Source: Arthonia radiata
Taxonomy: Eukaryota > Ascomycota > Arthoniomycetes > Arthoniales > Arthoniaceae
Assembly (NCBI GenBank): GCA_002989075.1
Contig: PSQN01000015.1
Span: 992,001 to 1,056,000, forward strand
DNA length: 64,000 nt
Direction: 5' to 3'
In this document: in pieces, positions 2,826 through 64,000 of the stretch
How positions within the stretch are numbered: the stretch's first letter is position 1
How the letters are laid out: each line of letters opens with the position of its first letter
Program-made: the position numbers and the translations under genes
The notes under the pieces: model-generated
What the model saw: the letters and a program-made list of their open reading frames with translations, nothing else
Told to the model about the DNA's origin: nothing
Databases searched by the model: none

Positions 2826-5573
2826 ATGCATTCGCCACAGCAGTCACACGAGGCTGACCATGGCTCACGCGATGACACTGGGCAATCTCCATCTAGACCA
2901 CGTCGATCAGAGGAAACTTACAACACTGACGGTTCCCCCAATCCATCGCCCTCCCCCGGTCTCTCCCGAGAAGGAGATGGCAACTCTCAGAGCAGCAGTA
3001 CCGCTTCAGTAGGCGGCCCTGTTGTTACGAGCCAGAATACTACAGCGAACAGCAATTATATTGCTACTGCAGCCGCTGGCGCGAGACCTATTCCAGCTCG
3101 GCCATCCGCGTCCAGCTTGAATACGATGACGCTGGACCATTCAGACACGAGCAGCGCCGGATGGATGCGAAATGGCACCAACCCTTTCCAGTCAATGCAA
3201 CGAGGAAATTCCTCGAGCCCTTTGCCGGCCGATGATGGTATGCAGCTGCTTCGCCAACAAATGCACCAGATTCGAGACATGGTCTTGTCCACAGAAGAGA
3301 AGGCTCAGAGGATGCACAGGCTCATGGTTGCAGAATACCAGAGATTGAGAATACGGCAGGTGCAAAAGGAGACGAATGACTATGAAGCCAGAGGGAGACC
3401 TCTCGCTCGCTCGTCGTCCTCACATGGTCTTGCTAGCTCTCGCGATCCAACTGTGTCTGCGTCGGGGCTTACACTCAGCAGATCTTTGAGATCGGAAGAG
3501 CTGGAGCCAACCTACCACCTCCACGACCGTCCATCCGGCACACAAGATGACACCACGGACAGCGACAGCGACAGTGAAGGGCCTCCACTTGGATGCGAAC
3601 ACTACATGCGAAATATCAAAGTCCAATGTCCGCAATGTGAGCGATTCTACACTTGCCGTCACTGCCATGATGCGGTCGAGGATCATACCTTGGTTCGAAA
3701 AAACATCCTCAATATTCTTTGCATGCTATGTGGTCTTCCGCAGAGGGCTGCCGAATATTGCCGGCAGTGCGAGGAGCAAACGGCTTGCTATTATTGCGAG
3801 GTTTGCAAGTTATGGGACAACGACCCGACGAAGACGATCTATCATTGCCCTGACTGTGGCATTTGCCGAAGAGGTGAGGGTATTGGCAAGGACTATATCC
3901 ACTGCATACGATGCAATGTATGTGTGAGCATCCAGCACGCCCAAGACCACCGGTGCGTGGAGCGCGCAACTGACTGCGATTGCCCGATCTGTGAGGAGTA
4001 CATGTTTTCCTCGTCGTCTGCGGTCGTAGCAATGAAGTGTGGTCATTACATCCATCGGAATTGTTATGACGATCTTATGAACACCACCTACAAGTGTCCA
4101 ATCTGCAATCGTAGCGCTGTCAACATGGAGCTGCAATGGCGGAAGATGGATGATTGTCTAGAGTCACAGCCTATGCCCGAGCAATATCGAGATACTCAAG
4201 CCTGGATCATTTGCAATGACTGTCACATGCGGAGCTGCGTTCCGTTTCATTGGCTGGGGAATAAGTGTCGGATGTGTGACAGCTATAACACGAATCAAGT
4301 AAGCTTGGTCAATGAGCCAAAAGAAAGCACCGTGATTGCATCCAACGTCGAAGCCGAGCAGCACCAGGTCGCTCAAGCCGCGGGTCTTCCTCATCCAAGT
4401 ACTGCTTCTTTGACAGGCAACAGATCTGGTACGCAATCTGGGCTTCTGACAGCCGGAGATGACATTGAACGTCCACACACTCCGCTTGGTGATTTAGCGT
4501 TATCAATCGATGATGATAATGCAGGTGAAGCCCCAGCTCAGCCAGCTCAAGGCGCCCCTCTGAATCATCGGCGGTTTCGTGCAGCCCTGCGATCACCTCC
4601 TTCGCCTCTTGATCCAGATCAATATATGGGCGCACCACGAGCCCGTCGACCTCGTCGCCATTCAGAGTCGTCTGCTTCAGCACCTGCAAGCATCTACTCC
4701 GAGGCTGATGACGAGATGGGATTCTGGGGCGCAGGCATCAATCCCGGTGATTACATGCCCAGTATGCCGCAGATGCCAAACATGCCCCAGATGCCCAGCA
4801 TGCCGAGTCTACCACGAATGCCTTCAGTATCCATTCCCAGCATGCCTGCCGGCTGGAGAAGCCCAAGTCTCTTCGCAACAGCCGAGCAGGATATTCAGCC
4901 TCCTCAAGACGGCGAACAGCGAGGTTGGGGGTTTGACCCTCGGCAGTGGAGACTAGGCAGTCCAACAGATTATTTCCGCACGCAATCACCCCTAGCTGAC
5001 ATCGCTCTTTCAGATGACGAATTGGCCCTGGAAGCAGACGTTGAGAACAGAGACCAATCTAGCTTTGCATCCCACATTGGTTGGGACCCTCGCCGCTGGC
5101 GACTACCTACGAGCCCGAGGTTCTTCAGTGATAGGGACGCGCTCCTGGACGATGCACCTGATGCTGCTGTCGCTGACGCCGAGGCTGGCAATGGTTGGGG
5201 CATCGATCCGAGGCAATGGAGTTTCGCCAATCAAGGTATATTCGGCAGGTCTCGAAGCGTGGACACAGCCATTCTTCACACTTCAACGGCCGGAGAGTGC
5301 TCTACAACGGGCACGAGTCCGTCCAGCATTTGGAATCTGCAGCCTCGCAGCTATCTGGCGAGGAGGTTTGGAAGCTTCAGTATTCATGGCAACTCGGACG
5401 GAGCCGAATCTAAAAGCGAGGATGAGGATAGTGAGGGCAGTGGAGAAGAAGAGGAAGACAGTCGAGATGTTTCTGACGATGATGAAGAAAGTGATGAAGC
5501 TGCCTCGAGCAGTAGTGAGCGAGGTGAGGGCGAGACAGACGAAGATCAGTGGGACCTGGTAGGACATCGATAA
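2826..5573 (+). CDS. CHY/CTCHY/RING zinc-finger E3 ubiquitin ligase (RCHY1/Pirh2-like)
   Basis: A single 915-residue frame. After a disordered Ser/Thr-rich N-terminus the Cys/His-rich core begins at about residue 257 with GCEHYMRN (CHY finger), continues through a CTCHY finger, then a RING from C386 (CPICEEYMF ... CGHYIHRNC ... CPIC), then a zinc ribbon (ICNDCHMRS ... CRMCDSYN) at about 455-490. This order is that of the Pirh2/RCHY1 family, whose members ubiquitinate substrates through the RING. The human protein is about 260 residues, so this is much longer: the extra C-terminal half has Met-Pro tandem repeats and three spaced WDPRxW-type motifs (residues 700, 752, 790), and ends in a strongly acidic tail. 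Start chosen at the first ATG of the frame; an upstream exon cannot be excluded. Substrates cannot be inferred. Confidence 0.9.
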   Translation: MHSPQQSHEADHGSRDDTGQSPSRPRRSEETYNTDGSPNPSPSPGLSREGDGNSQSSSTASVGGPVVTSQNTTANSNYIATAAAGARPIPARPSASSLNTMTLDHSDTSSAGWMRNGTNPFQSMQRGNSSSPLPADDGMQLLRQQMHQIRDMVLSTEEKAQRMHRLMVAEYQRLRIRQVQKETNDYEARGRPLARSSSSHGLASSRDPTVSASGLTLSRSLRSEELEPTYHLHDRPSGTQDDTTDSDSDSEGPPLGCEHYMRNIKVQCPQCERFYTCRHCHDAVEDHTLVRKNILNILCMLCGLPQRAAEYCRQCEEQTACYYCEVCKLWDNDPTKTIYHCPDCGICRRGEGIGKDYIHCIRCNVCVSIQHAQDHRCVERATDCDCPICEEYMFSSSSAVVAMKCGHYIHRNCYDDLMNTTYKCPICNRSAVNMELQWRKMDDCLESQPMPEQYRDTQAWIICNDCHMRSCVPFHWLGNKCRMCDSYNTNQVSLVNEPKESTVIASNVEAEQHQVAQAAGLPHPSTASLTGNRSGTQSGLLTAGDDIERPHTPLGDLALSIDDDNAGEAPAQPAQGAPLNHRRFRAALRSPPSPLDPDQYMGAPRARRPRRHSESSASAPASIYSEADDEMGFWGAGINPGDYMPSMPQMPNMPQMPSMPSLPRMPSVSIPSMPAGWRSPSLFATAEQDIQPPQDGEQRGWGFDPRQWRLGSPTDYFRTQSPLADIALSDDELALEADVENRDQSSFASHIGWDPRRWRLPTSPRFFSDRDALLDDAPDAAVADAEAGNGWGIDPRQWSFANQGIFGRSRSVDTAILHTSTAGECSTTGTSPSSIWNLQPRSYLARRFGSFSIHGNSDGAESKSEDEDSEGSGEEEEDSRDVSDDDEESDEAASSSSERGEGETDEDQWDLVGHR
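4755..4848 (+). repeat. Coding Met-Pro-x tandem repeats
   Basis: Inside the CHY/RING ligase, ATGCC(N) units of 9-12 bp encode a run of MPSM, MPQMP, MPNMP and MPSLP repeats. It is followed by the WDPRxW motif region at 4923-5230. Confidence 0.8.
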
Positions 5574-7090
<1,517 letters not shown>

Positions 7091-62361: not shown

Positions 62362-64000
62362 ATGGCCATACCCAGTGAAGGCCCAGCTCCGAAACGGCCG
62401 GGGAAACCGAAAAAGAATGCGAGACGCAGAGGCTCCATCGATGATGAGACCAAGAGAAGATGCGTAAGCAGTGCATGCACTGCCTGTCGAAGACGAAAGT
62501 CGAGTATGTGTGGTGACCTCTATCCAACCTGCACGAATCGAAACTAACGTGGAAACAGAGGTAGGTACGTTGATGCGAGTTGGCTGCTGCGCTCAGGACA
62601 ATCGAAAATGTTCGCTGACCATATCGTCAGTGCGATGGCAATCACCCTGCTTGTGCGGCGTGTTGGTTCGTGTCTAAGCTCATCTACTAGGGAAACCCTA
62701 CTGACTCCACTCAGCCAAGTATACCGCACGGAATGCGTGTACGATCTGGCGTCTGATCATCGAAGGAAGGGAGTTTATAAGCAGGACATCGACGACCTTC
62801 AGACTCGCAACTCTACCTTGACAACCCTGATCGAAGCTATTCTCAATTACCCGCAAGAGGATGTCCCAGACCTGGTGCGGCAGATCCGCACATGCGATAG
62901 CCTAGATCGCGTAGCAGAATCCATCAGCACGCAGGATTATGAAATTGACGATCTGATGGGTGATCCCGCAAGGTCTGACGTATCGCCTTTCGAAAGTCGT
63001 CTATCAAGTAAACTTGGGCAGCTAAGACTGCACGGCGAAGGCGGAGCACGCTATTATGGCGGCACTTCGAATCTGCTTTTCGTAGACGAAGATTCGGACT
63101 CATCTGCTTCACAGCATTCACATAGGTCGATTGCCGGCCCTGAATCGGACGACTCGCGCATCGCCTCCTGGACTACCGTTTCTGACGACCCCGAGCTCAT
63201 CATGCATCTGTTGAATATGTACTTTACCTGGCACTTCTCGTTCTTCGTCACGCTGTCGAGGCAAGCATTTAAGAAGCATTTTGTGTTGGGCAATCCAGCA
63301 CCCAATGCAGCTAAGAGACTGCAGTATTGTTCTCCGCTACTCGTCAACGCGATGCTCGCTCTTGGATGTCATTTCTCTTCCAGGATAGAGGCGCGAGATG
63401 ACGAGAACAGCTCGTCAACGGCTGGCGATCATTTTTTTCGGGAAGCCAAAAGACTTCTGATGGAAGGCGAAGAGTACGAGACGCCTAGGCTGACTACTGT
63501 TCAAGCTACTGCCTTGATGTCGGTCAGGGAAGCGGGTTGCGGCAGAGAGGCTCAGGGCTGGGCCTACTCGGTACGTTCGTCGTCGTGCTGCTTTGCTACG
63601 ACAGAATCAGCGTTTGCTAACAATCGCGAATAGGGCATAGCCTTTCGGATGGCATGTGACCTCGGACTGAACCTCGATCCAAAAGGTCTAATACGCAACG
63701 AAGCTCGTCTCAACGAAGAAGAGGAAGACGTGAGACGAATGACGTTCTGGGGATGTTTCTTGTTTGATAAGTGAGTGGATGCTCAGTCTAGCTATCAGGT
63801 CCTGATGCAGAGCTTTGGCACCTGGGCAGCGCTTGACAGACGCTGACATCCCTGCCCAGGTGTTGGTCCAATTACTTAGGGCGGCTGCCACAGTTTCAAA
63901 GGGAGCAGAATGTCACCGTTCCTATATTCGACGTATTACCGGACGAAGAAGCAACAACTTGGTCTCCGTATACAGACAGTGGATTCCAAGACAATCACTC
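62362..64000 (+). CDS. Zn2Cys6 fungal-specific transcription factor (partial, 3' end outside window)
   Basis: A DNA-binding regulator with an N-terminal binuclear zinc cluster and a fungal_trans middle domain. Proposed exons: 62362-62503, 62559-62560, 62631-62665, 62715-63570, 63634-63770 and 63860->64000. The cluster reads SACTACRRRKS|K|CDGNHPACAAC|CQVYRTECVYDL; all six Zn cysteines and the invariant Lys before the third Cys appear only if a 2-nt exon (AG, 62559-62560) lies between a 55-bp intron (CTAAC branch, AAACAG acceptor) and a 70-bp intron (GTAGGT donor, GTCAG acceptor). Skipping it shifts the frame. The middle domain has MYFTWHFSFFVTLSRQAF, YCSPLLVNAMLALGCHFSS and, over the later introns, AFRMACDLGLNLDP, FWGCFLFDK|CWSNYLGRLPQ and PYTDSG, typical of this family. 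The start could also be ATG 62302. The target genes are unknown. Confidence 0.85.

Follow-up and report, generated by a model that had tools for sequence, protein, structure and literature searches.

A predicted two-nucleotide exon within the zinc cluster of a NirA/NIT4-like regulator gene of Arthonia radiata

Gene content and exon-intron structure

In the genome of Arthonia radiata (33.5 Mb in 16 contigs) we examined a window of 64,000 nucleotides, contig positions C12:992001-1056000, which reaches at its downstream end into a gene for a Zn2Cys6 regulator. The gene extends from 62362 to 65377 on the forward strand and was modelled with seven exons and a reading frame of 876 codons. Coordinates past 64000 are extended ones, taken from the adjoining region, and introns 3 to 6 were positioned manually so as to maintain the reading frame. 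The gene model is as follows.

62362-62503, + strand: exon 1, ending with the codons for CTACRRRKS and the first base (A) of a Lys codon
62504-62558, + strand: intron 1, 55 nt, GTATGT...CTAAC...AACAG, with the CTAAC at 62544-62548, phase 1, within the Lys codon
62559-62560, + strand: predicted microexon AG, 2 nt, bases 2 and 3 of the Lys codon AAG that precedes the third Cys
62561-62630, + strand: intron 2, 70 nt, GTAGGT...CTGAC...GTCAG, phase 0, at the boundary between Lys and the third Cys
62631-62665, + strand: exon 3, starting TGC GAT GGC and encoding CDGNHPACAAC, plus two bases
62666-62714, + strand: intron 3, 49 nt, GTTCGT...CTGAC...CTCAG, likewise within the zinc cluster
62715-63570, + strand: exon 4, with the last Cys of the cluster, the linker, a segment resembling an export signal (62986-63036) and the start of the Fungal_trans domain
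63571-63633, + strand: intron 4, 63 nt
63634-63770, + strand: exon 5
63771-63859, + strand: intron 5, 89 nt
63860-64231, + strand: exon 6, crossing the window edge at 64000
64232-64290, + strand: intron 6, 59 nt, beyond the window
from after 64290 to the stop at 65377, + strand: exon 7, beyond the window

All six introns of the model, which range from 49 to 89 nt, carry a CTRAC branch site, and the 876-codon coding sequence that remains after their removal has no internal stop. With the microexon included, the joint reads AAG TGC and the cluster has the form CX2CX6CX6CX2CX7C. Compared with Pfam, the full 876-residue protein reached 32.6 bits for Zn_clus, where the cut-off is 21, and 161.3 bits for Fungal_trans, where it is 23. 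A search of the PDB gave nine matches, all weak and all to zinc-cluster proteins such as GAL4. The downstream neighbour on the same strand, lying just past the window (positions 4631-5893 of the adjoining region, L009), is presumably an ATPase resembling the NBP35/MRP-type P-loop iron-sulphur proteins.

Relationship to NirA and NIT4

Judged by its sequence, the gene appears to encode a Zn2Cys6 transcription factor related in type to NirA and NIT4. This assignment is based on the motifs around the zinc cluster, which we take to match the NirA sequence, on the export-like segment and on the presence of likely reductase genes. The protein has the Zn_clus and Fungal_trans domains in common with NirA and NIT4, and it carries a candidate export segment resembling that of NirA. 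The latter, PFESRLSSKLGQLRLHG (residues 151-167; 62986-63036), is identical to the published NirA peptide at 8 of its 17 residues; it has Ser at the position of G167 and differs in having Leu at the position of the redox-sensing Met169 of A. nidulans. One NirA study, covering 68 known or predicted orthologues, reports Met at this position in 57 of them and otherwise only Ile (PMC4488483), and the Leu counts against strict orthology with NirA.

Candidate reductase genes are located on another contig. The best of three Mo-co_dimer matches in the genome occurs at C13:280994, the other two being weaker and situated elsewhere, and the only Fer2_BFD match occurs at C13:284962. The two genes are direct neighbours in the same orientation, 4 kb apart (C13:280700-286839), and their domains, scores and adjacency indicate that they are likely to encode nitrate reductase and nitrite reductase, respectively. 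Three NirA-type CTCCGHGG sites are present in 14,000 bases around them versus 1.2 expected, and the one located between the two reductase frames (282999) carries little weight given that expectation. Introns of the A. nidulans nirA gene are said, in the title of a paper, to lie 'in highly conserved regions'.

Possible splicing solutions across the zinc cluster

The preliminary description of this DNA had exon 1 ending at 62503 with a single A left over, had the next conserved exon starting with TGC GAT GGC at 62631, and held that no single GT/AG intron would repair the frame between them. Both the letters and the coordinates proved correct, and the claim about single introns was borne out by an enumeration of every GT/GC-AG excision 35 nt or longer whose donor falls within 62440-62639. 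Twenty single excisions were in frame with 62631 and three of these were stop-free; none of the 20 yielded CX2CX6C, and the three stop-free ones all remove at least the second Cys. There were 98 stop-free solutions with two introns and only one of them restored CX2CX6C, namely the excision of 62504-62558 and 62561-62630 with retention of the AG between them. Nested excisions, of the kind found in stwintrons, produced no solution with CX2CX6C.

Fragments of 83-84 residues spanning the joint were then scored against Pfam. The 84-residue fragment with the AG gave a Zn_clus match of 36.8 bits, which upholds the earlier reading of the domain as a zinc cluster; the score fell to 25.3 bits when the Lys codon was omitted, and the fragment in which the AG was skipped gave no Zn_clus match. 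By the frame, Pfam and product tests, the microexon is required for both the frame and the conserved motif. It had also been stated that nearly all Zn2Cys6 proteins have Lys before the third Cys, and this is loosely right for the present genome, where a regular expression found 35 unsplit domains with Lys at this position in 23 and either Lys or Arg in 32.

When the end letters of the intron were left unrestricted, 11 single excisions of 125 nt gave the cluster spacing, none of them combining a GT or GC start with an AG end. A working cluster could, in principle, arise without a microexon through a non-canonical single splice, either GT-TC (62504-62628) or AT-AG (62506-62630), both of which keep CX2CX6C. 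The former generates the same protein from an mRNA identical to that of the microexon model, because intron 2 too ends in AG, and since the finished mRNA is the same either way, cDNA alone cannot decide for the microexon. The AT-AG excision reads KSSC, and its 84-residue fragment still scores 33.9 bits for Zn_clus, versus 36.8 for KSKC. Neither is, however, a standard splice-site pair, and the occurrence of two complete sets of branch site, acceptor and donor within the interval would have to be a coincidence. Moreover, the AT-AG intron would start with ATGTGT, presumably not of the U12 type, which counts against that splice. We consider the use of either non-canonical pair to be extremely unlikely.

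Splice signals and chance expectation

Both introns flanking the AG possess a donor, a CTRAC branch site and a CAG acceptor, and the arrangement that had been reported between the two exons, CTAAC...AACAG followed by AG (62559-62560) and GTAGGT, is present. A full-signal site was defined as CTRAY at a legal distance, HAG, AG or AA, and GTRNGT. It occurred once in 321,800 strand-bases of the genome, at 62559-62560 itself, and when any two middle bases were allowed the same scan yielded two sites. In a control for exons of 1-12 nt that could join zinc-cluster halves, which covered both strands of 64 loci (63 other genome regions and the whole window) and 83 first-half ends, the only full-signal solution was again the site at 62559-62560, and there were none lacking full signals.

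When the interval was shuffled 20,000 times with its dinucleotides preserved, one shuffle passed the full test, 11 passed it with the middle pair left free, and 186 contained the bare AG[AG/AA]GT at legal spacing. The signal criteria were set post hoc, with the site already known, and the conservative estimate of chance is the bare one, about 0.9%.

These figures bear on the simple explanation that a two-base sequencing or assembly error lies in or near the interval and that a single ordinary intron, about 129 nt long, is present in the true gene. An error of this kind would leave the full-signal site, found in 1 of 20,000 shuffles, unexplained, and the resulting intron would exceed the gene's other introns (49-89 nt). 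It also implies a phase-1 intron where the paralogues described below show phase 0, and overall we regard such an error as quite unlikely. A separate sample of 34 bridging introns required CTRAY and had a maximum length of 130 nt, such that it cannot show a length of 127 nt to be too long.

In that sample, which includes one mis-call at the microexon site itself, the distance from the branch A to the AG ranged from 6 to 29 nt, and for intron 1 it is 11 nt. Several features count against the microexon model. The intron 1 donor has A instead of G at position -1 (CGA/GTATGT), and there are two competing signals. The acceptor of intron 1 is part of a tandem AGAG, with a frame-breaking alternative AG located 2 nt downstream from the intron end, and a donor upstream within exon 1 (62464, GTAAGC) is in frame with the acceptor at 62630 and would drop the first half of the cluster.

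Paralogues and the origin of the intron pair

A comparison of the protein with its own genome gave eight matches, of which the best other than itself were at C12:2150667 (L018) and C6:697305-698562 (L019, two matches). In each of these paralogues the cluster is interrupted by one phase-0 intron, with ACCAAG/GTCCAT...TCTAG/TGC and 62 nt in the former and ACGAAG/GTACGT...GTTAG/TGC and 66 nt in the latter. Both introns are positioned exactly between the AAG (Lys) and TGC (third Cys) codons, which is the position of intron 2. Two further loci, L022 and L023, have a phase-0 intron immediately before the third Cys, where the preceding codon specifies Arg and Gly, respectively. The phase-0 intron right before the third Cys, common to these four loci, is possibly an old intron of the family. 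A scan for split domains across 64 loci classed 35 as unsplit and six as candidate splits after a filter for donor or branch site, leaving 23 unclassified including the window; two of the six candidates, L026 and L035, are at other positions and doubtful.

Since intron 2 occupies the paralogue position, the AG microexon would correspond to the final bases of the former exon 1. The two-nucleotide exon put forward in the preliminary description is strongly supported by the sequence, through the single solution among 98 with two introns, the shuffles and the control loci, together with the intron positions of the paralogues. We estimate at roughly 85% the probability that three introns interrupt the coding sequence of the zinc cluster, two of them flanking a 2-nt exon AG that is needed for a working cluster.

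Intron 1, which splits the Lys codon 2 nt upstream from the old intron, is probably the later addition. While the intron positions of the paralogues can be read directly, we infer the evolutionary route, and two routes fit. Intron 1 may have been gained beside the old intron, and this is favoured by the length of intron 2 (70 nt), which is close to those of the paralogues (62 and 66 nt). Alternatively, two bases may have been lost from the exon end and rescued by a cryptic AG exon, a course that resembles the scenario proposed for CYP621A by Nelson and Syed (PMC12940212).

Two possible sources of intron 1 were rejected. As an introner-like element it should have relatives, and the 127-bp interval matched only itself at E <= 0.001 in a search that passes over simple repeats and very common words. 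A derivation by duplication of intron 2 was not supported, the local alignment score of 16 being reached by 60 of 1000 shuffles. The exact pattern of a phase-1 donor in the Lys codon had one match in the genome, the present site, and a control pattern read backwards also had one. A pattern search for orthologues gave no matches in a viral contig collection and nine in a genome contig collection, none of them to a relative.

Proposed splicing and its consequences

From the signals and the frame, which are directly visible, we infer how splicing would proceed in cells and in what order. Introns 1 (55 nt) and 2 (70 nt) would each be recognised as a unit, by intron definition, because both are short and each has a full set of donor, branch-site and acceptor signals. 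The U1 footprint on the donor at 62561 (about 62558-62566) would overlap the acceptor of intron 1 and, therefore, the two introns are probably removed sequentially. Joining of 62503, the AG and 62631 would then produce AAG TGC and the complete cluster.

The preliminary description had also considered a recursive splice site. In the strict form, the distal AG (62560) ends intron 1, the donor CGA/GTAGGT is regenerated and 62561-62630 is then removed, with a zero exon. The sequence AG/GTAGGT at 62559-62566 does have the make-up of a ratchet point, and the AGAG tandem permits recursive use, but the computed product is a frameshifted one of 72 residues with no Zn_clus match. Furthermore, the distal acceptor is GAG whereas the proximal one is CAG and nearer to the branch site, and a CAG acceptor nearer to the branch site is usually preferred. 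The zero-exon route is, consequently, not a productive one, and we hold it to be highly improbable that the gene is spliced in this way.

Other departures from the two-intron splicing with retention of the AG are similarly damaging. Computed products are 72 residues long when the microexon is skipped, 61 when intron 1 is kept and 96 when intron 2 is kept, and mis-splicing at the microexon is costly. Joining of the donor at 62464 to 62631 leads to an in-frame form of 862 residues with a Zn_clus score of 17.1 bits, as against the cut-off of 21.

It could be that the locus yields mainly a protein deficient in DNA binding, either as a decaying pseudogene or through the 62464 to 62631 join, which would give the 862-residue form and remove the first cluster half. 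The product obtained by removing 62464-62630 is stop-free with Zn_clus under the cut-off and Xlr2 of Trichoderma virens is described as occurring in a version devoid of the zinc cluster (PMC11121469). On the other hand, the first half of the cluster, CX2C-RRRKS, is intact in exon 1, the 876 codons and six introns of ordinary make-up give no sign of internal stops, and at 167 nt the 62464-62630 intron would far exceed the gene's other introns. The probability of a mainly deficient product appears to us to be very small.

The built-in control suggested in the preliminary description is possible and has a precedent in Xlr2, and regulation could conceivably act via the tandem AGAG and the competing donor at 62464. 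A more specific proposal, that the microexon acts as a switch of nitrate use in which the AGAG and donor 62464 choose between full NirA, frameshifted products of 61-96 residues and the 862-residue form, seems unlikely, and we are equally doubtful of its component that splicing efficiency would set the amount of active regulator.

Translation continued into intron 1 (62504-62544) gives a peptide that ends with CGDLYPTCTNRN before a stop codon; its likeness to a CDGxxPxC half-cluster is probably due to chance. The sequence CGDLYPTC was rejected as a half-cluster, as a stop follows and the 61-residue product has no Pfam match.

Comparison with other very small exons

The site has the sequence features of an ultra-small microexon, a few nucleotides lying between two introns with complete signals. 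The closest counterpart is the 1-nt exon of the Fusarium CYP621A P450 genes, likewise a fungal case with two introns around an ultra-small exon in a conserved motif, which was deduced by the same phase argument (PMC12940212). It differs in its size, 1 nt versus 2, in belonging to a P450 rather than a transcription factor, and in being backed by an alignment across species and 18 SRA reads (PMC12940212). The same source mentions exons of 2-5 bp in Arabidopsis, Drosophila and human (PMC12940212).

A microexon of 20 nt in Trichoderma Xlr2 is also part of a Zn2Cys6 cluster, and no complete DNA-binding domain is formed without it; it differs in its length, in encoding PCRRCE with two Cys, and in residing in a different gene (PMC11121469). 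Its inclusion is reported there to depend on glucose, with expression in the absence of glucose and none in its presence (PMC11121469). The single-nucleotide exon of Arabidopsis APC11 is similarly ultra-small and, in that case, constitutive; it is from a plant, measures 1 nt and was tested with GFP fusions, and Guo and Liu judged simultaneous removal of the introns to be very unlikely and favoured removal one after the other (PMC4674806).

Fungal stwintrons, as portrayed in two reports, resemble the present pair in having adjoining short introns that require consecutive splicing (PMC5639578, PMC6616335), but here neither intron breaks a splice signal of the other and two exonic bases stay. Assignment to the stwintron class was rejected, as there were no nested solutions giving CX2CX6C, and so was the class of zero-exon recursive splice sites, as AG/GT without retained bases results in the 72-residue frameshift. 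None of the titles and abstract openings listed from openly licensed literature described a 2-nt exon for NirA or for any fungal zinc cluster; the one paper matched by a phrase for such an exon dealt with HLA-F.

Implications

The 2-nt exon would represent an extreme case of the rare tiny exons already known, well supported by the evidence given above if unproven. If real, it would be among the smallest exons of any fungal gene and its origin would still be visible, with the paralogues keeping the single old intron and a second boundary, 2 nt upstream, stranding two bases. It would also allow sequential splicing by intron definition to be tested in a compact setting. The AG exon is likely to escape gene finders, which would then annotate the regulator as broken or as devoid of a DNA-binding domain, and a spurious GT-TC junction may result when cDNA is aligned at this site.
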